Shown here one piece after another: positions 37,001 through 58,200 of a stretch of DNA of 64,000 nucleotides. Under the pieces are notes generated by a model, which was given only the letters and a program-made list of their open reading frames with translations, ran no database searches and was not told the DNA's origin. The translations under genes and the position numbers were made by a program. The number at the start of each line of letters is the position of its first letter. The first letter of the stretch is position 1. The DNA is from Symbiodinium sp. CCMP2592 (taxonomy: Eukaryota; Sar; Dinophyceae; Suessiales; Symbiodiniaceae): the NCBI GenBank assembly GCA_905221615.1, contig CAJNDT010003112.1:600001-664000 (forward strand), read 5' to 3'.

Positions 37001-40000
37001 ACTACTTGGACCCTTAAGTAATTCAACTCACACTTGTGAGCAGTACTTGTAGTTGAGGGGTGTCGGGCGCTCGAGATAGTAATTAATCAATCTAGTCTCG
37101 GTTCGGGAGGGTCCTCGTTCAAGGCCCACGGACGTGGAGTGCACGTCTCCACCAACCATGTGAGGCGGGCCGTTGCCATACTGGATTGAAGCTTCAAAGT
37201 TTCGAGCTTTGGTTCAGGGTTGAGGGTTTAGGGTTAGGGTTTAGGATATGTGGAGATGGTCATGGGTCATGCGTTTAAGAACTTGGACTTGCCGTTTACG
37301 AAGACCCAGGCTGCCGCTGCCTTAGCCCTCCAAGCATGTGTGCCGCTCTTTAGCATCGCCGAGGTACGAGGGCGAATGGCGGAACGACTACAAGCATGGT
37401 CAGGGGGAGGAGCGAGCTTAAGCTCTTGTCGGGCCTGCTTGTGGGAGTAGCGTGGATTTCCGCGCGATCCCTAGAGCCTCGAGCATCGTGCATCTCGGCC
37501 TCGGTCCCAACAACCTCGGACGGAGTAGAGCCCAGAAAGACAAAAAGACCCCGACCCTAAACCCTAAACCTAAGATCCCTAACCCCAAACCCCAAAGCGT
37601 ACCCACAAGCCGAATGAGTACCGAGGATTGAGTCACTACACTAGGCCTCTATAGTAATCGCATAACTACCCTCCTAGAGGGCCCCAATCCTCGTTTTAAG
37701 CAATAATGTAGGGGCCTTACTAATTAGAATAGGTTTTTTTTTTTGGGGGGGGGTCCTTATTATGAGTATAGTATCATCTACCCCCAAACCCTATTCTAAT
37801 CATTAGTTAGCGAGGCCCCTATATTACGGCCGCTCCGAAGCCAAAGCCCTGCAGCTGCCGGCCTTGTGACAAAGAGAGGAGTTCTACTCTGATGGAGGCC
37901 GCTACACCGGAGGCAGATCATCAGTCGGCTTTATGGTTTTAGGGGTTTAGGGTAACATAGAATCCGTCCTGCTTATAATTGTGAGCTTATATGCACCGCA
38001 AAACCTGTTGCAATGAGTAAGGCCCTTGCAATTACCCCCTTGTCGCTTTGGGATGTTGTGTTTTTGAGTTTGGGGTTTGTGGTGTCGGATGAGCAATGCA
38101 AGGCTCAGGGTTTAAGGTTTTGGAGGTTGGAGAAAGGTTGGAGATCGTGTGCTTCACGACCGAACCATGCAACGTTTAGTTTGGTTCGTTGTAGACAGTC
38201 GTTTTGTTCGAAGAGGGTATTTGGCCCCATCCATGTTGGTTGCTGATGCTGTGAAGTTCATGATTTGAGGGTTTTGGGGGGTTTAGGGGTTCAGGATTTA
38301 GGGTTGAGTGCTTCGGGGGTTTAGAGTTTAAAAGTTTAGGGTTGGGCAATTAAAGGCGGGTTGTCACGGGTTGTTGGTGTTTCTAGTGCTAGGCCTATCC
38401 CAATGAAATTATCGAAATTCTTTTCAAGTCAATATAGCCTGAGGATAGGGCCGGGGGTTTGGGTCTAGAGTTTCCGACCCTACGTTAATGGCCTCAGGGC
38501 GTTACAGGCGTCACAGGGTTTGGGGCTCGGCTTGGTTGAGGATGCAGGGATGGATCCTTCTGCTGGCCGCTCATCCTTCATGAAACCATCCTTGCTGTCA
38601 AGCTTCAATCTGGCCACAAGAGCAGTGCCCACAAAACTCCCAGTCTTTTCATTGCACTTTGTGCTGATTGGATTTTGTTTCCTGATTAATTATACGGGTG
38701 ATCCTGCCCATCGACTTGCCTAACACAACAGGTATCGGGAAGGAGCCACACTCGTACTCCATCAAGCCCTTTCCGACAGCTGCTGTTGAGTTTCAAGCCC
38801 CGAACTGTTTCAGCTTCAATGTCACATCAGAGCAAACATAAACCCGTCGGACGGCCTGCAACATGTCGACTACAGTGGAGGTCGGACTGCTCAGTGGCAA
38901 AACGACTACTGTGCAAGTGGATTTGGATGAAGCTGTGAATATGCTGAGACAACGGGCACAGGTCGCACTCGGAGTCGGGAGAGGGCTCCTGCTAGCCTCC
39001 TGCGGAGACATTCTGGATGGATCTGCAACCATTCGCGAAGCCAGAATTCAGAATGGTGATTTGTTGATGCTTCAGCTGAAACGACTACAAGTCCAAGGAG
39101 CATATGATTCTTTTGCTGCAGTTCTTGGCGATGGATCTGCGGTGAGCTGGGGTAACACTACCGCTGGTGGCGACAGTCGTGCTGTGCAGGGTCTGCTGAA
39201 GAACGTGCAGCAGCTCAAGGCCTCTGACGGTGCGTTTGCTGCCATTCTTGACGATGGATCCGTTGTGTCCTGGGGTGGTGCGTTTGCTGCCATTCTTGGA
39301 GATGGTTCCGTTGTGACTTGGGGTGGTTCTGTTACAGGTGGAGACTCTGATGCTGTGCAGCATCAGCTGAAGAATGTTCTGCAGATCCAAGCTTCTAGAG
39401 GTGCTTTTGCTGCCATTCTGAGTGATGGATCCGTTGTGACTTGGGGGAAAGATATCAGCGGTGGCGACAGCAGTGCAGTGCAGGGTCAGCTGCAGAATGT
39501 GCAGCAGGTCCAATCCTCTTTCGGCGCTTTTGCTGCCATTCTTGGCGATGGATCGGTTGTGACCTGGGGTAGAGACATCGGTGGCGGCGATAGCAGTGCT
39601 GTGCAGGGTCAGCTGCAGAATGTGCAGCAGATTCAAGCCTCTTTCGGCGCTTTTGCTGCCATTCTGGAAGAAGGATCCGTCGTTACCTGGGGCAAGCCTG
39701 AGTATGGTGGTGACAGCAGCGCTGTGCAGGGCCAGCTGAAGACAGTGCAGCAGATCCAAGCCTCTGAGTGCGCATTTGCCGCCATTCTTGACGATGGATC
39801 GGTTGTGACCTGGGGTGATGCTGAGTGTGGTGGCGACAGCAGGGCTGTGCAGGGTCAGCTGAAAACTGTGCAGCAGATCCAAGCCTCTGGCTATGCTTTT
39901 GCTGCCATTCTTGACGATGGATCCGTTGTGTCCTGGGGTGATGCTGACGTCGGTGGCGACAGCAGTGCTGTGCAGGGTCAGCTGCAGAATGTGCAGCAGA

Positions 40001-43000
40001 TTCAAGCCTCTTTCGGCGCTTTTGCTGCCATTCTGAGTGACGAATCGGTTGTGACGTGGGGTGATGCTGGGCATGGTGGTGACAGCAGTGCAGTGCAGAA
40101 TCAGCTGAAGAATGTGCAGCAGATCCAAGCCACACACCGTGCTTTTGCTGCCATTCTGAGCGACGAATCGGTTGTGGCCTGGGGTGATGCTGGGTATGGT
40201 GGTGACAGCAGTGCAGTGCAGAATCAGCTGAAGACTGTGCAGCAGATCCAAGCCACACACCGTGCTTTTGCTGCCCTTCTGAGCGACGAAACGGTTGTGG
40301 CCTGGGGTGATGCTGAGTACGGTGGCGACAGCAATGCCGTTGAGTATGAGCTGGCGACTTTGTAGCAGCCGCTTCGGAATCTTCAGGGCCCGGCTAACAG
40401 AACACAGCAAAGGAATTTGCCAAGACACTGCCGAAGTCCTGGTCACAGTACCCCGACAACACCACTTCATGGCTTTTGGCCTGCTTGTTGATATAGGTGT
40501 TGTATTCATCAGCGTTTTGGTGAGCAAAAGTGACAGTAGAAAGCAAACTACCCCCCCAAATAATAAAATAACTTTCTGAGCTTTTTTGGGGGAAGGGGTG
40601 GTGGTGTGGGTGGTGTGGGGGGGGGGGCCTTTAACTTAAGGGGGAAGGGCTCATGTCGGCCCTCGTCTTGGTACAGCATACTGAGCGAGACTCCCTCTTG
40701 GAGATATCTGAGGTAGGTACATTGATGTAGGGGGTTGTCTTTGGAGATACTAGACCCTAAATCCTAAACCCAACAAACCCAACAAAATCTGAAGCGTAGG
40801 TCAAGACAAGACTGTTGAAACTGGAGCCTCCCCGAGCCCGGGTCAGAATCCTAATACCTTCTGGATCCGAAACCTAGCATCCACATCTTATTGGGTAAGG
40901 TTTACTTTCGGATGTAACGTTTACGGGTAAGGGCTTAGCATGGTGATGGTGATTGTTGCAATGCGTATGATAAGAACATAAGTCTTATTATTATTATTGA
41001 GATGATGCCTGTTATTATGGGTATCATAGCATTAAAGTAAAAGCCAGAAAGTTGGAATATGATTATCCTAAGCCCTTTATGGTAAATTATAAGGTATCCT
41101 ACCCTGAAACCATATTCCAACTTGCTGGAGTTCCCTTTACCTGGTTGAGGGTTGTTTTTGCAGCCTCGCTCCTTGCTTTGGAGCTTCGGTCAGGCTGGGC
41201 CGATGGGAAGAAGTCCGGGGAGGGCACTTTCCGCTGGCTGGACGGCTCTGAGTACAAGGCCCCCAAGTGGGAGTTTCCGAAAATTAGAGGGACCTTATTT
41301 ACGATAATATATTAGGGTCCCCTAGTTACAATTCCAAGTGCCCTCTTTTTGCTTGGCAAAGTTGTCGTAGTAGCTCTGGTGGTTTATAGAGCTGCTTATG
41401 CTAAGATAAGCCGGCTCTGGTTGTTTATCGCAACGTCTTACGCAGGTTCATTGGGGTCTTACGAGGTTTGCCTTGTGAGGGAGTCGGAGTTCGGTCGGCT
41501 TCCTTTTACTGTAGTGTTTTCTCAATAAAGAGCTTTCGGGGCTTGGATTTTGAGGATCCAGGCATTGGTGTATACCTTACACCACCAACCCCGATTTTGT
41601 TGCATGACACCGAACACATCCCTATTCAACAGCGCGGTAAGACCCAGGAGCCCACAACAAAAGCAGGCCAGTATGGTAATTTAGGGTTCAGGTATATAGC
41701 AGCTTAATGGAGGGTTTAGGTTTGAGGGCTATCTTTGATGCAGGGTTTTGGGGATTGTGGAGTTAAGGCTCTGCCCCTGCCTTCGAAACTGGGTGTAGGA
41801 TTCTCGACAGGGTTGCCATGTCCTTGTTAGAGATCCTCGCCCCAAGAGCAGACACGACTAAGAAAGGCTGGGACATAAACTTGAACATGCCCCGTGCCTA
41901 AACTCGACCATGCAAATCCCGAAGCCCTTCATCCTTTTCATCCTCCTCCTGCAGCCCCAGGTAAGAATTACCTATACTATTTTTTTGGGGGGTGTTCTTA
42001 TTATAGTTTTAGTACAACGGGCCCCGAAACCCTATTCTAATTATTGTGGCCCCTACATTAGCGCGTTCAACTTCAAAAGCAAAGAACCTAAAGTTGTAGT
42101 CAGTACGACTGAGCCTGGAATCAGAAAACGTAGAACACCTATAGATCAACTACTGGAATCCTGAAGATAGAACTCTAAACCTCACTTGTTTAGTATGGTG
42201 TATCCCTGAACCCTCGAACCCTCCTCCCTCCAAATCTAAACACTTATAATAAATAAACCCCAAAACCCTAAATCCCGTAAACCCTAAAATCCTAAACCCG
42301 TAACCTAAGTCCCATAGACGTCCCTTAAAAAAACCAAACCCCAACACTCTCTTCAGCGCAGGGCGCCTTCCATGACGACCTCTTCCATGGCCAGGGAAAG
42401 CAGAGATGGGCCGATGGTCGCGTCTACGAGGGCCAGTGGGAGGCCACCCGAGAAAGTTCTCAGGGTTCCTTAAAAGGTTTTAGGGTTTAGGGTTCCCAAA
42501 GGGTTGTTTTAGGGTTTAGGGTTTCTCGGAGTTTAGGGCTTGGGGTGTAGGGTATAGGGTCTTAAGGTTCAGGGTTCATTGTTGTAAGAGTTCCGTTAAG
42601 GGGTGGTGTAAGGGATCGCGTCCTGGGTAGTCTAAGAAGTGATGCAATACGAGTGCCTCAAAGGAGCACTACGAGGCTGTTTTTTCCAGAAGGGTAACCT
42701 GTGAGCGTGCCGTGGGGATGTAAGACCAGGTTTCAAGGTGTGTTACTACTGAGGAGTTTAGAGGTTCAAGTCTCCCTTAGAATCCTAGAAACCTGAAACC
42801 CCCAAGCCTCCCAAACCCGAGAACCCTGTCAGCTCTGCAAGAGACCCTCCCAAGCATCCCAATAGCATCCTGCACCGCCCTTGGCCCTAACATCTTGGGA
42901 CCCTAAACCCTAAAACCCTATAGACCCTAAAACCCCAAGACCCAAAGCCCTAAATTAAGGAATATACCTTAAATTATAGTAGGATCCTTAATATGATTTA

Positions 43001-48239: not shown

Positions 48240-48404
48240 TTGCTCCAGAAACGAACTTGCTAATGCAAAACACTCAGGAGTTGACCTTCTCCAACCTCAA
48301 ACCCCAACTCTAGACCCAAAGCCTAAAGCTCAAAATGAAAAGGACTAAACCCTGAACTCTAAACCCTAACGCCAAAACTGCATAAACTCTAAACCCTAAT
48401 TAAC

Positions 48405-48650
48405 ACAGAAACCATAGCAACTCTGAAACCCTAAACACCGAAACCATACAAACTCAAGAAGCCCTAAACACTGAAACCATATAAACTCTAAAATACCCTA
48501 AGCACCGAAACCATATAAATTCAGAAAGCCCTAAACACCGAAACCATGTAAACTCTAAAATACCCTAAACACCGAAACCATATAAATTCAGAAAGCCCTA
48601 AAACCCTAAACCCTAAACCCTAATAAACACCGAAACCATGTAAACCCAGG
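48405..48650. repeat. About 34-bp tandem repeat derived from telomere-like units
   Basis: Unit CCCTAAACACCGAAACCATA plus TAAACTCTAAAATA, about six copies, some shortened. It grades into plain CCCTAAA at the end. Confidence 0.8.
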
Positions 48651-48774
48651 GCCCCCGAGCCTGCGAGCCCCTGGCAGAACCCGTGCGAAGCTGCCTCTCC
48701 AGAGCGAGCAGATTTTGGGCGTAGGGTTTAGGGTCTAAGCTTCGGGTTTAGGGTTTAGGGTTTTAGGGTTTAGG

Positions 48775-49007
48775 TGATGAATCCTTCTGCCTGCTGTGAA
48801 ATGTAAAGTGTGCATGCTTTCGAAGGCCTTGATGGCCCGAATCACTGAAGCTAGAAGACTCAACGTTAGTGCTAAGCACAGCACAGTCCTAGCATAGCAA
48901 CGAGTATCAGGTTGCGCTTTCGGTGAAAACATTTCCAATTCGCTGTGTGGTGCCATGTTGCCGTCTACTGAGCATGCTGGAGAGTCAGGAAGTGCCTCGC
49001 ATCATGA
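48775..49007 (+). repeat. 5' LTR
   Basis: Begins TGATGAATCCTTCTGCCTGC and ends GCCTCGCATCATGA. By eye identical to the 3' LTR. The gag start codon (48955) lies inside it. GGGTATGAGCCCA follows directly and could be the primer-binding site, since it resembles the TGGTATCAGAGC site used by plant copia elements, but with mismatches. Confidence 0.9.
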
Positions 49008-52000
49008 GGGTATGAGCCCAACGTTACCTGGTGAAGATGCCGCTCCTGATTACGGGGCAATGACGTCGGAGCCTCTGCGTCCGAATGTAGATGCTGCACT
49101 TCCTGTTCCGGTGAGGACCATGCCTAATGGGGTTTTGAATGAATCCGTGATGGAGCGAGCTTCGGGGGCTCGTATTTCTGACCCGGCTGGACCTTGCAGT
49201 GGTGCTAACGGTGTTATGGCTGCACAAGAGATGACACGTCAGATTCCTGGTGATGGAACAGTGTCACATGAAGGACAGACGACGACCTCGCCGCCATCAC
49301 TTCCGCCTGGGGGCGTTGTTCTTCCCCTGTTTCCTCAGTTTCATCCTTCACCTCTACCAGGTCAATCTCCACTGACTCATCGAGAAGGTGAAGGTCGATC
49401 TGGTTCGTGGTTTACAAGGTTGGGGGATTATATCCAGAAGAGGGTTGAGGTTACGGCATGGTCTTCGCCACCGGCCTCGGCTACCCATCAGGCGAGTGTG
49501 TGGCATAATCAGAGTCGCGTTCAGACCATGGTCGTATCTTCGCCAACTGATGCTGAAAGGAGACCCGAGTCGAATTCGAGCGGTTCGGCAGGGATTCCTC
49601 AGGAGATGGTTCAAGCAGAAGTCGCGCGTCAGTTAGACAACGCTATGGTTGAAGTGATGAATCGCTTGCAAGCGGAAAGGTCAAGAACAGAACAAGCCAC
49701 CCAGGAAGCACGTCAGCTTCGAGAGCAGTTGGAGTTCTACGAAATGAAGGCTCGGCAGGCACCCCCGCCCGGAATCTCACCGCCTCCTGGAGGCGATCAT
49801 GGAGCTTCCATCGGAGTTTCTGCGAATCATCCTCTACCTGGTCTGATGTCGGAGCAATTTGCTCTTCCAGGGCTAGACCGTCGGATTCAAGGGGAACCGG
49901 AGCCTAGACAAAGGAATGATCAAGTTGTGGAAACCCCTAGCCTACCTCGTGGTGATCGGGCTTATGAGGCTACAAGTGATCCGGTACCAGGAAGCTTCAG
50001 CCTACCTAGTGGTGATCGGGCTTATGGGGCTACAAATGAACCTGTACCAGGAAGCCTTAGCCTACCTCGTGGTGATCGGGCTTATGGGGCTACAAATGAA
50101 CCTGTACCAGGAAGTCTTAGCCTACCTCGTGGTGATCGGGCTTATGAGGCTACAAGCGGTCCTGTATCAGGGAGTCCTAGCCTACCTCGTGGTGATCGGG
50201 CTTATGGGGCTATTAGTGATTACGTACCAGGAAGTTCTAACCTACCTCGTGGTGATCGAGTGGATGGAGCTGTTGGTGATATGGTCTATGGAGCTTCTAG
50301 ATTACCACCTGGCAACCAATTGGGTACAGCCCCTTTTATCAGTGATCCTGGAGCTTCCATCGGAGTTTCGGCGAATCATCCTCTACCTGGTCCTTCTGAA
50401 GAATATGGGCATAGGACGCGTACCAGATCTCAGTCGCCAAGTGGTCCCCGTGCTTTCTTTCAGGGCTTGTTTGGTCGAGGAACAGCAGTTCGTCAGGAAG
50501 CACAGCCATGTGACCAGTCAAGTACAGCTGTGCCGCGGTTGTCACAAGCGACTTTCATTCCACCTCCACTTCAACCTCCCTTACCTCCACCTCCACTACC
50601 ACCTGTTTCCCCAGGCATTGCGGCACCGGCTGGCCGAGGTGATGACGTTCTGGCCACACTGGCTCGGGGCATTATTGAGGCCTTGCTGCAGCAACAACAG
50701 CAGGGGCCGCGTCCGGATCGTCCGGAAACCGTTAAGCCAGGCATATCTGAGCTTCCGCATCTCCCGGAGTACCAGCCGTCTACGGGGTCGATAGACCTAC
50801 TACATTGGTTGACGCACATAGCGCCTATGATGGAGGACTTGTCAGATACCAGTTTGCTTTGGTGGCAACAGACGGTTAAGGATGCTTTGACCTGGTATGC
50901 TCGCTACTCCTCGTCTCCGCCCCTGGCCAGGTTGCAACTTCGTCCTCAGCCTAGCAGTGAACTTCGCCCTGAGTGGGCGCGGGTTGAGCGCCGGGCCACG
51001 GCGATGATGCTCAGTGCCATTCCGAAGGCGATCCGAGAGGAGATCATAGCGCATGGCCAGATGTCAACGTTGGATGTGCTTTGCAAGTTATACTCGGTGT
51101 ATCAGCCAGGGAACCTGCAAGAGAAGACCTTAGTCCTGAGAATGCTGGAGCAGCCGGAGGAGTGCGTCACGGCGCTTCAGGCAGTTGAAGGATTGCGGCG
51201 ATGGAGCTTGTGGAGGAGACGGGCGGCTTCACTTGGAATGGCAGAGCCGGACGCGTCAGTTCTTGTGAGAGGACTGGACAAGATAACGGCTCCGATAATC
51301 AAGGGGAGCGGTGAGCTGGCGTTCCGGGTGAGCTTGATCAGGAGTACCTTGCAGGTGGATGTGAGTCCTTCTTCGGCCACGGTGACTACGTTCTTGCAGC
51401 ACCTCCAGGCTGAGATGGAACAGCAGGCCCGTCTTGGGGTTGCCAAGGGAGCATCTGAGAACCAAACTGCGCTTCGGGCTATCAACACCACTACTACCAC
51501 TGACCCTTCACCTTCCCTACAACCATCAACTACTACAACTCCACCTTCACCCTCGAACAAGCAGCAAGGAGCCTTGTGCCGTTTCTTTGCTTCGGACAAA
51601 GGATGCCGTCGTGGAAATGGATGTCGGTTTCCACATACGTGGGCGCTGCTTGAGAAAGGGAGCAGGCAGCGGAAGTGCCTGTGCTGTGGGTCTACGCAAC
51701 ATAAGGTTAAGGACTGCAAGGCGCCGGGTGGAGGCCAAACAAGGGCTACTTCATCGAGGACGGAGGCGGCGGGTCCAGGTGAGACGGGATCTACTTCGCC
51801 TACGGCGTCTGTGGCAGATTCACCCGCACGAAAGGTGAAGTTTGACGGTGAGCAAGTGCAAGCCAAGGTTTGTAAGATCCTGCAGGATGTGAAGAATATG
51901 CCCCTGTTCCGGTCGGTGATTGATGCAGTGAATCGGTGGGCTCATCAACCTGAGCCACCATCCCCCCGGGCGCGATCGGCGCTGTTGGACTCTGGGGCCA

Positions 52001-52992
52001 CGCATGTTCTACGGGGACCGCAGGATGAACGTGAATGGCGCCAGGCTACGGATGTAAAGGTCCAGTTGGCTGGGGATGCATACGCCTCTATGCGTCAGAC
52101 CTCTTCGGGAACGATTCTCAATGAGGACCAGATGGCTCAGGTGATAGTGCCGCTGGGCAAGGTGATTGTGAATCTGGGCTACAAATTGCATTGGACCTCG
52201 GAGGAGTGTTACTTGTACCACGAAAATGGAGAGGTCATACACTTAGATGTGGTCCGGGGTTGCCCGGAGGTGAGCGAGGAGGTGGCGAAGAAGTTAATCT
52301 TCCGTTTGGAACAGACACAGCTCCCAGAGCTCAAGGACACCACGGAGGCGTCGATCAAGGCCCTGAACTTTGTGAAGTCGAGTTGGTGGGTGTGCCTTAT
52401 GGAGTATGTGATGACTGGCAGCGTCGATGCTGCAAGGACTGCTATTGCCAAGGCTCCTTTCTTGCTGTACAAGGATGTGATTACGACTACTTTGGCTACC
52501 TCCAGACCGAGGACGGGAATATGGGATCTGTTGAAGTCCATTAAGATCAACAGGCGAACTCGCAAACGCCTCATGAATTCATCCTCCTGGGTGATTCGCT
52601 GGGATCCACCCACCGTGGACCGACCCCGAGACCTCTTGAAGCACCTTGGGATGGCCAAGGAGACTATGTATGTGAACCTGAACACATTGCTTCTTGAGAA
52701 CGAGTTCGATGATGTTTGGAAGGTTGTTCTTTGGGGTGCAATGGAAGGAAAGATTAGCACTGTGGTGGCTAAGGATTGCTGCAGGTCCCCTCTGGACCAA
52801 GTGGTCGCTGCACCGCACCGGAGTAAGGTGCACTACTTGCATGCGTTGGCAAGCGCAGGCCGTACTGCTCGCGGTCAAGATGCTGTGAGGTTGCTGGTTG
52901 AGGACTTGGATCGTGTTCAACGAGATCAGCGAGAGGCTCGGACATTATGTGGCCGGCGTGGTCTATGTGTAAGGAGGCCCAGGAGTATATGA
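48955..52992 (+). CDS. Copia ORF1: gag, nucleocapsid zinc fingers, aspartic protease
   Basis: 1345 codons. Residues 1-17 are encoded by the LTR. About 1-280 is Pro/Ser-rich; a coiled-coil-like stretch (QAERSRTEQATQEARQLREQ) lies near 240-265. About 329-448 is six 20-residue repeats (LPRGDRAYGATNEPVPGSLS), flanked by two copies of GASIGVSANHPLPG. The capsid-like region is about 590-860. Zinc fingers: CCCH from C875 (CRFFASDKGCRRGNGCRFPH) and CCHC knuckle from C908 (CLCCGSTQHKVKDC). Protease: LLDSGATHV with catalytic D1012. The frame ends just after the upstream part of the integrase region, and ORF2 takes over in the -1 frame with a 46-base overlap. The product makes the virus-like particle and processes the polyprotein (family knowledge). 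Confidence 0.9.
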   Translation: MLPSTEHAGESGSASHHEGMSPTLPGEDAAPDYGAMTSEPLRPNVDAALPVPVRTMPNGVLNESVMERASGARISDPAGPCSGANGVMAAQEMTRQIPGDGTVSHEGQTTTSPPSLPPGGVVLPLFPQFHPSPLPGQSPLTHREGEGRSGSWFTRLGDYIQKRVEVTAWSSPPASATHQASVWHNQSRVQTMVVSSPTDAERRPESNSSGSAGIPQEMVQAEVARQLDNAMVEVMNRLQAERSRTEQATQEARQLREQLEFYEMKARQAPPPGISPPPGGDHGASIGVSANHPLPGLMSEQFALPGLDRRIQGEPEPRQRNDQVVETPSLPRGDRAYEATSDPVPGSFSLPSGDRAYGATNEPVPGSLSLPRGDRAYGATNEPVPGSLSLPRGDRAYEATSGPVSGSPSLPRGDRAYGAISDYVPGSSNLPRGDRVDGAVGDMVYGASRLPPGNQLGTAPFISDPGASIGVSANHPLPGPSEEYGHRTRTRSQSPSGPRAFFQGLFGRGTAVRQEAQPCDQSSTAVPRLSQATFIPPPLQPPLPPPPLPPVSPGIAAPAGRGDDVLATLARGIIEALLQQQQQGPRPDRPETVKPGISELPHLPEYQPSTGSIDLLHWLTHIAPMMEDLSDTSLLWWQQTVKDALTWYARYSSSPPLARLQLRPQPSSELRPEWARVERRATAMMLSAIPKAIREEIIAHGQMSTLDVLCKLYSVYQPGNLQEKTLVLRMLEQPEECVTALQAVEGLRRWSLWRRRAASLGMAEPDASVLVRGLDKITAPIIKGSGELAFRVSLIRSTLQVDVSPSSATVTTFLQHLQAEMEQQARLGVAKGASENQTALRAINTTTTTDPSPSLQPSTTTTPPSPSNKQQGALCRFFASDKGCRRGNGCRFPHTWALLEKGSRQRKCLCCGSTQHKVKDCKAPGGGQTRATSSRTEAAGPGETGSTSPTASVADSPARKVKFDGEQVQAKVCKILQDVKNMPLFRSVIDAVNRWAHQPEPPSPRARSALLDSGATHVLRGPQDEREWRQATDVKVQLAGDAYASMRQTSSGTILNEDQMAQVIVPLGKVIVNLGYKLHWTSEECYLYHENGEVIHLDVVRGCPEVSEEVAKKLIFRLEQTQLPELKDTTEASIKALNFVKSSWWVCLMEYVMTGSVDAARTAIAKAPFLLYKDVITTTLATSRPRTGIWDLLKSIKINRRTRKRLMNSSSWVIRWDPPTVDRPRDLLKHLGMAKETMYVNLNTLLLENEFDDVWKVVLWGAMEGKISTVVAKDCCRSPLDQVVAAPHRSKVHYLHALASAGRTARGQDAVRLLVEDLDRVQRDQREARTLCGRRGLCVRRPRSI
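49939..50298 (+). repeat. Six 60-bp tandem units inside gag
   Basis: AGCCTACCTCGTGGTGATCG begins each unit at 60-bp steps (49939, 49999, 50059, 50119, 50179, 50239). A 43-bp block from GGAGCTTCCATCGGAGTTTC occurs on both sides (49801 and 50350). Other frames stay open here but are shadows. Confidence 0.9.
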
Positions 52993-55900
52993 ACGAGATG
53001 GGAATTGTTGATGTCTCAATCTCTGAGTTTACGGGCGAGAACTATGTAAGGGTTGCTCGTATGGACGGGGATGCTGCCTGGCGGCTACATGTTATGCGAG
53101 GGCGTCAGCCATTTCGGCGAGATTGCTCGGTGTGCGTACGCAACAGTGCCACGGGCAAGCAGCACAGAGCTACCATGCATCCAATGGCCTACACGTTGAG
53201 TGTGGATGTGGTTGGGCCGCTGAAGGAGTACGGAAAGTCCCCTGATGGTAAGTTCTTCAAGTACTTTGTGATAGGTGCTATGAGGATCCCAAAAGTTGAT
53301 GGCGGTGAAGGACATCCAGAAGTTCATGGTCACCCAATTCCTCCTGATGGTCTTGGCGACGAGGAGGAGGAGGAGATCTTGTCCGAGGAGGAGCGGGACG
53401 AGGATGAGCCTGCCCCTGAACGTGACTATTGTGACCCCGCCGAGATTGAGAAGGAAAATGAAAGATGGAAGGAGTTGAAGGCGTCGTTCAAAGAGCCGAT
53501 ATCAACTACCACCTTGTACTTTGCGGTTCCAGTGAACAACAAGAAGGCAGCTACGATGCTTCCGGCTGTGCAAAAGATTGTCCTGGATGTGAAGGCCCTG
53601 GGCTACCCTATCACCAGGCTTCATAGTGATCGTGGTGGTGAATTCCGAGGCCACCTGGTGAGAAGATGGGCTTTATCTCAGGGTATGTGGCCTACGACAA
53701 CCTCCGGGTCGGAACCGGCGGCTAATGGTGTCGCTGAGTCTGGAGTTCGGTACTTGAAGCGGCGGGCGCGAGTGCTGCTGGACAGCTCAGGTGTGGGTCG
53801 ACAACATTGGCCTACGGCAGTTCAGCATGCGGCGGCGCAGCAGCGATGTGATCAACTTGGAGTTCTACCAGCCTTGCCAGTCGCCTACGGCACGAAGGTG
53901 TATGTGAAGACCAAGAAGTACAAGACTGGGGCGGTCGAAGATTTTGGCCCGCACTGGACCCGTGGACGATATGCTGGGCCGTCCACTGATATTCGAGGCG
54001 GACATGTGATTCTGAAGGACACCGGCACCTTTGTTCAGACCACGCATGTGAGGATCACCAGGGAGCCACCTCCCTTGGATACCATAGCCCCGACGGTTCT
54101 AGTGGACCCAGAAGGTGCTGACGAATCACCTCCCGCCGAAGAGGAACCTCCTTTACCACCACCGGTACTACCTCCACCTGATAAAAGGCTCCGGAGAAAG
54201 ACCCCCAGAGCTGCCAAACTTGATGAGCTTTATGAACCTTGTGTTGAGCTGTCGGATGCTACTCATGGTGTGAAAAGTTCATTTGAGGAGGAGCCCGAGA
54301 TGAAGTACCTGAGAATGGAAGAGGTTGAGTACCTAGAGGGAGTCGCTCGTGGTTTGTATGAGAACCAGAAATTCAGTAAGTCTGACAGCCACCGCCTATT
54401 GAGTTTGTTTGCTGGAACATGCGGCAATTTGAAGGTTCCCCGCGCTCCGGAAGGTCAAGGCTTGGTGCTTGGAGCTTTCGTTCATGGAGGTTCATTTGGA
54501 GTGACCCGTTATGGACGTGATCTTCCGTGGGTTACCAAGTACTTCAACACCTACTTGTACGAGAAGATCAGGGCCCAATGGCCGCACGCTCGACCTACCT
54601 GGACTACCCTGGCTGTGCAATGTGCCGAAAATGTCCCTCGCCATCGTGATGTTCATAATGAGCGAGCTACCTTCAACTATGTGATTGAGTTGAAGGCGGA
54701 GGACGTTGGTGGTTTGTGGGTTGAGGATAAAGGCTTCGAGCGTTGTGTTGTTGGAGGAGAGCGACCACAAGATTTTCAGTACGAAGCCGAGAGTGGCGTT
54801 GTGTATGACGGGTGCATGGTTGATATTTCGGAGCGGCCGGCGGCTTTCAGCCCAACAACCCCGCACGCATATGTGACCGCCGACCATAGACGATGGTTCT
54901 TGAGCGCTTACACTCCTCAAGGGTTCTCTCGGCTGAGTCTTGGTGATCAGCGATACCTGCGAGGCTTGGCGTTTCCTCTCTGTCAAGAAGATGAAGATTA
55001 CCACGGAACGCTGGAGAATGCTCCCGCGTTAAGGGCTGCAGACTTGCCTACTGGGGCTACATTGAGTGGATCTCATGTGAACCAGGGAGATGTGGAAGTA
55101 GCTACCGTGGGAGATTGTGAGGAAAGTCTCAGTGAATGGGCAATCTATGTTGAGGACTACGTTGAGGAAGAGACCGAACTTGGAGTTTGTGAGCAGGTCA
55201 GGTGTTTGAAGAAGATTGGTTCTTCTGATGATCCCGGAGATGAACTTTGGTCTTTGGTGGAGGCCTCGGAACTTCTGTCTGAGGAGGAGGTTGGCCCTGC
55301 TGTTGTTGAGAGCTTCGGGGAAAGGCTAGAGGACTGGAGCACTATGGGGACTTTGGATGTTCCAAGGATCGCAAAGGTTGAGCCGGAGTATACCCCCGAC
55401 ATCGAGGACATCATCGGCAAGGCTATCTCGGATCGGTGCCCTTTACGTCACACCTACAATGTAAGCCCTCAGGAGGCTAAGGCCGTGATCGAGAAGTGGC
55501 GGTCTGCAATCACCAAAGAGGTGGGTGTTGTAGAGAAGGGTTTCAAGAGGATCCATGTTGATGAGGTCCAGGAGATGAAAAAGAGGTGTTCCGTTCAGGA
55601 GCTGCCTTCCAAGTTGGTTTACACAGTGAAGCCGCCGAGCACGACATCTACTACCATTACTGATGAAGAGGATGAAACCATGTACTGTCGTCGTAAGGCT
55701 AGGGTGGTATGCTGTGGCAACTTCGCCGACGAGGAGGGCTCTGACCTTTTCGCCGGGGGCATTGCGGCGGAAAGTATGAGATGTGTACTGGTGTACACAG
55801 CCGACCAAGGCTGGATGGTGGGAATAGTTGATGTCACTGGAGCGTTTATGCTCACTCCGCTTCCGCAATTGCAAGGGCAAGTTCGTTACATCATAAGACC

Positions 55901-57800
55901 ACCAGCAGCTTTGATAGCCCTTGGATTGGCAGACAGGAATGAAAGGTGGCTATTAACGCATGGAATGTATGGCTTACGCCAGTCACCTAGGTTATGGTCG
56001 GAGTATCGTGACTCTGAGCTGAAGCAGGTTACTGTTGAGTATGAAGATAAGGTCTATGCGCTGAAGCAGGGCGTGGCGGAGCCGAACATGTGGCTTGTGT
56101 ATGAAGTGGGCGCGCCAGTGGATCAACCTCCTGACGGTCTCATCCTGGTGTACGTGGACGACATCATGTTATGTGGGCCAAGAGGTTTGGTGTGCGCTGT
56201 AGCTGCTAAGATTTCCCAACTTTGGAAGACTTCGGAGTTGGAACTGCTGACGGCGGAGCACGATCTTAGGTTTTTGGGCTGTGAGATATCAACCGAAGAG
56301 GGTGAGAACGTCTTCTACTTGCACCAGCGGCCCTACATAGATGAGATCCTACGCCATCATGGTATAGCAGCGAGTACCTTGTCTCAAATACAGGCCCCAC
56401 GCGACATGGTGACCTTTGAGGCTTTTGAGGGAGAGACCCCGGGAACCCCCGAGGAGATCAAGGCCGCGCAACGTTTGTGCGGCGAACTACTTTGGCTGGC
56501 CCAGCGATCAAGGCCAGATATTTGTTACGTTGTGAGTGCTATGGGCTCCCTGTTGTCAAGGGCAGCGGTTCGCTGCGCTGCCATTGGCATGAGGTTGCTG
56601 GCCTACTTGCAGCAGACCAGAAGCCTGGCGCTGACTATGAAGGCCACTTCGAGTGACCTCATTGCCTACTCGGACAGTTCGTTTGCTCCCCAAGGAAGTC
56701 GAAGCTTTACGGGAGTTGTTCTGAGTTGGAAGGGTGCGCCAGTGTCATGGAGGGCGGCAAAACAGCCGTTCACCTGCTTGAGTACAGCTGAGTGCGAGTT
56801 GGTGGCTTCCATTGAGGCATTGACGATGGCCAAGTCTTTGGAGGCTATCATCCATCAATTGGACCCTATGCCCAGGCCTATCATTTTGGGGATTGACAAC
56901 CAGGCGACGATTGCGATCGCTCAGCCTTCTACGACGGCTTCTTGGCGTACACGACACCTACGAGTACGTGCTTCGTACATTCATGAGCAGGTGGAGTCGA
57001 GGCAGGTGAAGATCCAATATATTCCGGGCAAAGACCAGTGGGCGGATCTGCTAACAAAGAGTTTTCCCAGGCAGAGGCTTTGCGAGCTTACGAAGCTTTG
57101 GGGTTTTGTGGATCGTATTCATGAAGCGTCCAAGAAGGCTGTCATGAAGGCAATGCTGATGTGTATGGTGGTTCAAACTTCCCGGGCGCAGGAGATTAAC
57201 GAGCCCCTTGCAATCAACACCTCCGTCGAGCTCTACGTTATGATCTTGGTGTTGGGTATTGCCGTGGTTGGGCTTTGGGAGTTCTTATGGCTCTGTGTTG
57301 ATCGGTGCTGCACGAGACCTGAGGAGACTCGCTCGGCTAAGAAAATGAGGAGGCTACGTGAGTTGGTTCAGAAGGAACTGGAGACACAGATTAATGAGGT
57401 TTCTGCAAGCTCATCGTCGGCGCCTTCCGCACCGACGCCTGCTCCAGCTCCACCGACGACTCCGCCAAGAACTATGAGAAGTTCCATGTCTATGCCCTCA
57501 CCCCCGCGACCGACAAGTGCGTTGGATATGCCCACACCTCGTTGTACCAGGCTTTCAGATGCCACTACTCAGACCCCGATTACCGAAGACTATGTACCAA
57601 TTGTGGAATATCTGGATCGTGATGTTCCTGTTGTGGTGCGAGAGTGGCATCCGGGCCCAGTATACGTGAGTCAGCATGGAGACACGTTTCATACCCATGA
57701 GCGATGCTGGGGACTACGGAACACAAGGGCGAGGCCCCTGCGATTCTGCCAGTGCTGTCGGGACAACGAAGGGCGATCACTTCGTGACCGAGGCGGCTAA
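52947..57800 (+). CDS. Copia ORF2: integrase, dioxygenase-like domain, RT, RNase H, TM tail
   Basis: 1617 codons; the first ATG may not be used if ORF1 continues by frameshift. Integrase: zinc part RDCSVCVRNSATGKQHR (about 53-70); catalytic D87, D228, E264 (second and third 35 apart); an acidic insert (DEEEEEILSEEERDEDEPAP, from 138) lies between the first two. About 480-665 is a 2OG/Fe(II) dioxygenase-like domain: H566-x-D568 in RHRDVHN, GGLWVE 588-593, H640 in TPHAY, R648/R649 in RRWF. RT: VDVTGAFM D962 and YVDD 1069-1072. RNase H: D1243, E1282, D1317, D1367. The tail has a hydrophobic helix about 1427-1451 (VELYVMILVLGIAVVGLWEF), a Ser/Pro-rich stretch and a HTHERC...CQCC cluster. Apparently functional; no internal stops. 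Confidence 0.92.
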   Translation: MWPAWSMCKEAQEYMNEMGIVDVSISEFTGENYVRVARMDGDAAWRLHVMRGRQPFRRDCSVCVRNSATGKQHRATMHPMAYTLSVDVVGPLKEYGKSPDGKFFKYFVIGAMRIPKVDGGEGHPEVHGHPIPPDGLGDEEEEEILSEEERDEDEPAPERDYCDPAEIEKENERWKELKASFKEPISTTTLYFAVPVNNKKAATMLPAVQKIVLDVKALGYPITRLHSDRGGEFRGHLVRRWALSQGMWPTTTSGSEPAANGVAESGVRYLKRRARVLLDSSGVGRQHWPTAVQHAAAQQRCDQLGVLPALPVAYGTKVYVKTKKYKTGAVEDFGPHWTRGRYAGPSTDIRGGHVILKDTGTFVQTTHVRITREPPPLDTIAPTVLVDPEGADESPPAEEEPPLPPPVLPPPDKRLRRKTPRAAKLDELYEPCVELSDATHGVKSSFEEEPEMKYLRMEEVEYLEGVARGLYENQKFSKSDSHRLLSLFAGTCGNLKVPRAPEGQGLVLGAFVHGGSFGVTRYGRDLPWVTKYFNTYLYEKIRAQWPHARPTWTTLAVQCAENVPRHRDVHNERATFNYVIELKAEDVGGLWVEDKGFERCVVGGERPQDFQYEAESGVVYDGCMVDISERPAAFSPTTPHAYVTADHRRWFLSAYTPQGFSRLSLGDQRYLRGLAFPLCQEDEDYHGTLENAPALRAADLPTGATLSGSHVNQGDVEVATVGDCEESLSEWAIYVEDYVEEETELGVCEQVRCLKKIGSSDDPGDELWSLVEASELLSEEEVGPAVVESFGERLEDWSTMGTLDVPRIAKVEPEYTPDIEDIIGKAISDRCPLRHTYNVSPQEAKAVIEKWRSAITKEVGVVEKGFKRIHVDEVQEMKKRCSVQELPSKLVYTVKPPSTTSTTITDEEDETMYCRRKARVVCCGNFADEEGSDLFAGGIAAESMRCVLVYTADQGWMVGIVDVTGAFMLTPLPQLQGQVRYIIRPPAALIALGLADRNERWLLTHGMYGLRQSPRLWSEYRDSELKQVTVEYEDKVYALKQGVAEPNMWLVYEVGAPVDQPPDGLILVYVDDIMLCGPRGLVCAVAAKISQLWKTSELELLTAEHDLRFLGCEISTEEGENVFYLHQRPYIDEILRHHGIAASTLSQIQAPRDMVTFEAFEGETPGTPEEIKAAQRLCGELLWLAQRSRPDICYVVSAMGSLLSRAAVRCAAIGMRLLAYLQQTRSLALTMKATSSDLIAYSDSSFAPQGSRSFTGVVLSWKGAPVSWRAAKQPFTCLSTAECELVASIEALTMAKSLEAIIHQLDPMPRPIILGIDNQATIAIAQPSTTASWRTRHLRVRASYIHEQVESRQVKIQYIPGKDQWADLLTKSFPRQRLCELTKLWGFVDRIHEASKKAVMKAMLMCMVVQTSRAQEINEPLAINTSVELYVMILVLGIAVVGLWEFLWLCVDRCCTRPEETRSAKKMRRLRELVQKELETQINEVSASSSSAPSAPTPAPAPPTTPPRTMRSSMSMPSPPRPTSALDMPTPRCTRLSDATTQTPITEDYVPIVEYLDRDVPVVVREWHPGPVYVSQHGDTFHTHERCWGLRNTRARPLRFCQCCRDNEGRSLRDRGG

Positions 57801-57850
57801 AGTCTGGCAGGCGACAATGTGGAGTGTTTGATCTCCCTTGCAGGTTCGAT

Positions 57851-57860
57851 AAAGGAGGAG
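57851..57860 (+). other. Polypurine tract
   Basis: AAAGGAGGAG lies directly before the 3' LTR, the normal position for plus-strand priming. Confidence 0.75.
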
Positions 57861-58093
57861 TGATGAATCCTTCTGCCTGCTGTGAAATGTAAAGTGTGCA
57901 TGCTTTCGAAGGCCTTGATGGCCCGAATCACTGAAGCTAGAAGACTCAACGTTAGTGCTAAGCACAGCACAGTCCTAGCATAGCAACGAGTATCAGGTTG
58001 CGCTTTCGGTGAAAACATTTCCAATTCGCTGTGTGGTGCCATGTTGCCGTCTACTGAGCATGCTGGAGAGTCAGGAAGTGCCTCGCATCATGA
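57861..58093 (+). repeat. 3' LTR
   Basis: Same 233 bases as the 5' LTR. The gag start codon copy here runs 18 codons, then meets TAG in the flanking TTAGGG repeat. Confidence 0.92.
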
Positions 58094-58200
58094 TTAGGGT
58101 TTAGGGTTTAGGGTTTTAGGGTTTAGGGTTTAGGGTCTAAGCTTCGGGTTTGGGGTTTAGGGCTTGGGGGGGGGGGGGGGTTAGGGTTTAGGGTGTAGGC
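58094..58200. repeat. TTTAGGG telomere-like block at the insertion site
   Basis: Contains TTTAGGGTCTAAGCTTCGGG, which also occurs upstream of the 5' LTR at about 48727-48746. A G16 tract lies near 58167-58182. Confidence 0.8.

Follow-up and report, generated by a model that had tools for sequence, protein, structure and literature searches.

A stretch of 64,000 nt from Symbiodinium sp. CCMP2592 (contig CAJNDT010003112.1, positions 600,001 to 664,000 of the forward strand; hereafter the window) was analysed, and the features of a long terminal repeat (LTR) retrotransposon present in it were collected in Table 1. LTRs, an integrase preceding the reverse transcriptase (RT) and an RVT_2 match were all found, and the element was assigned to the Ty1/copia type on the basis of the order of integrase and RT and the presence of RVT_2. 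The LTRs and the order of Gag, protease, integrase, RT and RNase H are common to Ty1/copia and this element, whereas a predicted 2-oxoglutarate (2OG)/Fe(II) dioxygenase domain between integrase and RT and a C-terminal tail are added in the latter. The integrase region in open reading frame 2 (ORF2) contains CxxC, SDRGGEF and NGVAE, which we take to be integrase motifs, and its best PDB match by sequence was 7z0h ('Integrase'), presumably the integrase of Ty1. The TAEC and ADLLTK of ORF2 were likewise taken as RNase H motifs and the DSGATH at residue 1012 of ORF1 as the protease motif, and a CCCH finger below the Pfam cut-off was located at ORF1 residues 874-894.

Table 1. Features of the retrotransposon (positions in the window) and the basis of their assignment
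Feature	Position	Strand	Basis or description
LTR retrotransposon	48774-58093		9,320 nt; bounded by 234-nt direct repeats
5' LTR	48774..49007	+	234-nt direct repeat, 100% identity with 57860-58093
ORF1, Gag and protease	48955..52992	+	Open frame, 1345 aa
ORF2, Pol	52947..57800	+	Open frame, 1617 aa; open from 52902, frame differs from ORF1
Integrase region	53067..54116	+	Motifs; PDB 7z0h, E 0.0026; rve below the Pfam cut-off (E 0.1)
TET/JBP-like 2OG/Fe(II) dioxygenase domain (predicted)	54300..54980	+	ORF2 residues 452-678; AlphaFold2 model, fold matches, conserved family
H566-R-D568-V-H-N571, predicted first two metal ligands and D+3 Asn	54642..54659	+	Row conservation; TET2 has HRDLHN
H640, predicted third metal ligand	54864..54866	+	His in 56/56 ungapped rows; first residue of a model strand
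R649, predicted 2-oxoglutarate-binding basic residue	54891..54893	+	K 42, R 13 among 55 ungapped rows; first residue of model strand 198-204
Reverse transcriptase RVT_2	55659..56369	+	Pfam E 9.9e-13; ORF2 residues 905-1141
RNase H motifs	56784..57059	+	TAEC and ADLLTK
C-terminal tail	57147..57797	+	ORF2 residues 1401-1617; hydrophobic segment and HT...CWGLRN...CxxC
3' LTR	57860..58093	+	100% identity with 5' LTR

A TET/JBP-like dioxygenase domain between integrase and RT had been proposed from the letters of the window alone (the sequence-only reading), and its location was confirmed by the integrase motifs and 7z0h match on one side and RVT_2 on the other. By translation, the coordinates given for it (54384-54941) correspond exactly to ORF2 residues 480-665, and the motifs named in it are present (PRHRDVHNE at 564-572, GGLWVE at 588-593 and PTTPHAYVTADHRRWF starting at 636). 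This extent is real, but the natural domain is wider, at about residues 452-678. The TET/JBP order of HxD...H...R also stood, but the claimed spacing did not: D568 and H640 are separated by 72 residues, against 149 positions between D258 and H407 in the engineered TET2 construct 5d9y, and the distal His is followed by the basic residue after 9 residues, against 15 in 5d9y. For the basic pair R648/R649, position 649 was K or R in 55/55 rows, whereas 648 was variable.

In three protein searches, 38, 9 and 20 matches were obtained (the one giving 9 was limited by length and therefore yielded short proteins), which represented 64 distinct proteins, every one found via the domain. All 64 match the domain profile, and Symbiodinium is the organism of all 41 that bear an organism name; in other dinoflagellates the domain was not found within the scope of these word-seeded protein searches. 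RVT_2 was precomputed for 26/38, 0/9 and 16/20 of the matches, respectively. The top database match, P0001, also from Symbiodinium sp. CCMP2592, was identical over the whole searched region and is the same copy. Residue 566 was His in 57 of 58 ungapped rows (Asn in the remaining one), and both Asp568 and Asn571 were invariant in 58/58, with residues 640 and 649 conserved as in Table 1; the rows are not independent events, as P0001 is the same copy and several others are near-duplicates. The metal ligands and the basic residue were also retained in a member with 31-35% identity. Because the ligand and basic positions are kept across related proteins, the motifs were not regarded as chance occurrences.

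Two AlphaFold2 models, of the window domain and of P0064, the most diverged member, were obtained with predicted local distance difference test (pLDDT) values of 85.0 and 86.6, and both gave fold matches to 2OG oxygenases. As the sequence-only reading had anticipated, the double-stranded beta-helix of the 2OG/Fe(II) superfamily was found in the predicted models, with H566/D568 and H640 at the canonical strands: in the window model, the first His ends strand 112-115, the distal His begins strand 189-192 and residue 649 opens the last core strand. That the domain has the fold of a 2OG/Fe(II) oxygenase and a conserved active site is close to certain. Among solved folds, Naegleria TET1 (NgTET1) and human TET2 were among the nearest, at 12-15% identity over aligned residues; for the window model, NgTET1 led ALKBH5, FTO and AlkB with a margin of 1.1 to 1.5 Z units, and TET/JBP enzymes were the nearest solved folds for the P0064 model. 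The conserved site and the predicted fold together support the interpretation as a 2OG/Fe(II) dioxygenase of the TET/JBP-like kind, and the TET/JBP-like assignment is considered likely.

The Tet_JBP Pfam profile gave no match at E<=10 for the window domain, the 20 A1 members or the 15 A2 members, and 2OG-FeII_Oxy gave none for the window domain or the A1 and A2 members. No match to the window domain was found in Pfam at E<=10 or in NCBIfam, and PHROGs gave a single one (E 0.44). When all A1 and A2 members were searched, three unrelated Pfam families were matched by each set, at best with E 0.07. In the PDB, searched with the dioxygenase domain by sequence and profile, nothing better than E 0.17 was obtained, which was taken as chance. 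No viral or prokaryote relative was found in viral contigs (A1, A2) or genome contigs (A1); phages gave no match with the window domain as the query and 10 records, all at E 0.3 or worse, with P0064. Two of these ten records were examined and rejected as chance matches, namely a Caulobacter phage C1 protein (158 aligned columns without HxD, no Pfam match) and a Pseudomonas phage match lying antisense to annotated genes. Because the Tet_JBP profile was unmatched, the domain is called TET/JBP-like on account of its fold and is not counted as a sequence member of that family.

The residues around the predicted active site were compared with those of TET2. HRDxHN is common to both, being HRDLHN in TET2 and HRDVHN, then ...TPHAYVTADHRRWFLSAYTPQG, in the window domain. 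The D+3 Asn, which contacts the base in TET2, corresponds to the invariant Asn571, and the residue six past the co-substrate residue is Y in TET2 and in 53/55 family rows. Eight past it, TET2 has His and the window domain Pro, and the co-substrate position itself is K or R in the retrotransposon family, unlike in NgTET1 and TET2. Some prolyl hydroxylases likewise have Asn at D+3 and an aromatic residue at +6, so these two positions support but do not prove a TET/JBP relationship. In a Coprinopsis TET, Gly331, three past the metal ligand Asp328, is described as one of two residues facilitating recognition of N6-methyladenine, and Asp337 as compensating for a contact stabilising 5-methylcytosine (5mC) that is lost relative to conventional TETs (PMC12730594).

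Other functions for the same fold were weighed against oxidation of a DNA base. The domain could be a demethylase of the AlkB/ALKBH5 type, acting on RNA or DNA and stripping N-methyl groups, such as that of N6-methyladenosine (m6A), from the RNA of the element; in favour of this, ALKBH5, FTO and AlkB come 1.1 to 1.5 Z units behind NgTET1 in the window model, and a captured AlkB-like domain in an orchid Gypsy element has demonstrated m6A demethylase activity (PMC9289625). The HxD...H arrangement, also an AlkB trait, is present in the domain and is common to the whole superfamily; the RxxxxxR of AlkB is absent (six past K/R649, Y in 53, C in 1 and F in 1 of the 55 rows), and we consider such a demethylase unlikely. 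A protein hydroxylase of the prolyl/aspartyl type, with Gag, integrase or a host protein as substrate, appears equally doubtful. The evidence for it is that Pseudomonas putida P4H (4iw3) was the top Foldseek match of the window model (E 1.9e-5), accompanied by several PHD2 rows, and that the co-substrate position, where Lys is usual in P4H, is Lys in 42/55 rows; for the diverged P0064, however, the first P4H row came only at Foldseek rank 29 (E 7e-3), and the 2OG-FeII_Oxy profile was unmatched. Prolyl hydroxylases were not named among the VIA-align matches listed for both models (50 per model), which does not in itself exclude them.

A small probability is given to a 2OG oxygenase fold that is no longer catalytic and has become a module of Pol with a structural role or a role in nucleic acid binding. 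The faster divergence of the domain than of integrase and RT and the one row with N in place of H566 would agree with such a loss, whereas few positions are as well conserved as the metal ligands and the basic residue (57/58, 58/58, 56/56 and 55/55), which are retained also in the member with 31-35% identity. Decay or misassembly of the region, with motifs that match by chance, would be in keeping with the different frames of gag and pol in the analysed copy, but is very unlikely, almost negligibly so, given the residue conservation, the 38, 9 and 20 protein matches, the confident models and the identical LTRs. Oxidation of a DNA base by a retrotransposon-borne TET/JBP-like domain is the reading we lean towards.

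Segment identities to the window were calculated for 34 proteins of at least 1500 aa from a set of 47, one of which is the same copy. Domain identity exceeded that of every comparable flanking linker in 32 of the 33 others (two of which had no second linker); in P0038, the domain (43%) tied with one linker (linkers 29% and 43%). Domain identity was usually lower than that of RT, as in P0006 (domain 61%, RT 64%, linkers 50% and 49%). For 32 sequences covering at least 80% of all three segments (the window included, P0001 dropped and P0064 not among them), domain distances were correlated with those of RT (r 0.889) and integrase (r 0.910), and neither value was reached in any of 999 permutations. 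The mean distance was the largest for the domain (0.447), followed by RT (0.369) and integrase (0.299). These values fit one old acquisition and joint descent, under a constraint weaker than that on RT.

ORF1 and ORF2 overlap in different frames at 52902-52992. According to gene models, both sides of the gag/pol junction lie within one predicted protein in 52 of the 64 related proteins, a count that includes P0001 (the same copy, joined by its gene model) and P0034 (the two sides far apart). Because the junction is unbroken in these proteins, a single-nucleotide change or a misassembly in the analysed copy seems likelier than programmed frameshifting, and this copy, in which the gag and pol frames differ, may be inactive even within an active family. 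The identity of both LTRs suggests a recent insertion. TTAGG at 48770-48774 (including the first base of the repeat) and at 58094-58098 is a possible 5-bp target duplication, which is ambiguous because the element sits within telomere-like TTTAGGG/AAACCCT-type repeats, found on both flanks (48382-48774 and 58094-58162).

The gag ORF contains a 60-nt tandem repeat (5.3 copies, 49939-50258). After RNase H, the tail of ORF2 consists of a hydrophobic segment (VELYVMILVLGIAVVGLWEFLWLCV), a low-complexity stretch and then HT...CWGLRN...CxxC; of the 16 sequences aligned, which include both the window and P0001, 13 have this motif (as CWGLRH in one), a Pfam search of the tail gave nothing above cut-off, and the tail is possibly a membrane anchor plus a zinc site. 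The observed/expected ratio of CpG was 0.91 for the domain (54300-54980), 0.76 for the whole element and 0.61 for the rest of the window. Outside the element, a 500-aa ORF with RCC1 repeats (38863-40365; PF13540, E 2e-32) is overlapped by a long antisense ORF (39085-40527) that has no match in Pfam.

Few mobile elements carry epigenetic enzymes, and each of them gives a hint of how its host silences it. Fungal DNA transposons (Kyakuja and others) also bring their own TET/JBP-like base oxygenase (PMC12730594); the fungal carriers are DNA transposons and some Helitrons, whereas the domain described here is fused in Pol of a dinoflagellate LTR retrotransposon, and this 2025 survey of fungi states that no TET/JBP-encoding retrotransposon was found. 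The orchid Gypsy is likewise an LTR retrotransposon that captured a 2OG/Fe(II) oxygenase, described as an active ALKBH5-like m6A demethylase with RxxxxxR, encoded by a separate ORF in a plant host (PMC9289625); the Symbiodinium enzyme, in contrast, is without RxxxxxR, lies inside Pol of a copia element and is TET-like by fold. SymbioLINE-Dnmt, SymbioDIRS-Dnmt3 and KnitGypsy-Dnmt3 also have an epigenetic enzyme in retrotransposon proteins, and some of them occur in the same host group, but they carry methyltransferases instead of an oxygenase (PMC5890265). In that report, Symbiodinium Copia is said to lack any DNMT domain, the DNMTs being in LINE and DIRS, and its main text nowhere mentions TET, JBP or dioxygenase. 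Among the papers listed by searches of openly licensed PMC full texts, no report of TET/JBP or another dioxygenase in dinoflagellate or copia retrotransposons was found. The combination of a TET-like domain, in Pol, in copia appears to be new.

The observations would be best explained if a Symbiodinium Ty1/copia lineage acquired a TET/JBP-like dioxygenase before the subfamilies observed here diverged, and fixed it within Pol. Fe(II) would be bound by H566, D568 and H640 and 2OG by K/R649, and the enzyme would hydroxylate the C5-methyl group of a DNA base. As a component of Pol, it would be packaged together with RNA and cDNA and come in with the integration complex, so that the nucleic acids encountered would be the RNA and cDNA of the element itself and the integration site. 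5-Hydroxymethyluracil (5-hmU) occurs in dinoflagellate DNA. Conversion of thymine to 5-hmU is slightly favoured, because new cDNA has thymine and no 5mC, and would give the incoming cDNA a modification typical of host DNA. Nearly as likely, the substrate would be 5mC, either at the target site or within the integrated copy, and its oxidation would counter silencing; in Symbiodinium, CG methylation is about 70% and CH methylation is enriched on transposons (PMC5890265).

It is a long shot that copia elements of Symbiodinium encode thymine hydroxylases that place 5-hmU in their own cDNA and have contributed, or given rise, to the 5-hmU of dinoflagellates; if true, this base modification would have a retrotransposon source. 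Where related algae have retrotransposons with methyltransferases (PMC5890265), the element would be their oxidising counterpart, and a retrotransposon of a coral-symbiont alga may rewrite epigenetic marks while moving. For base oxidation in dinoflagellates, the domain is a candidate enzyme that can be expressed, and the benefit to a retrotransposon of oxidising nucleic acid becomes a directly testable question.
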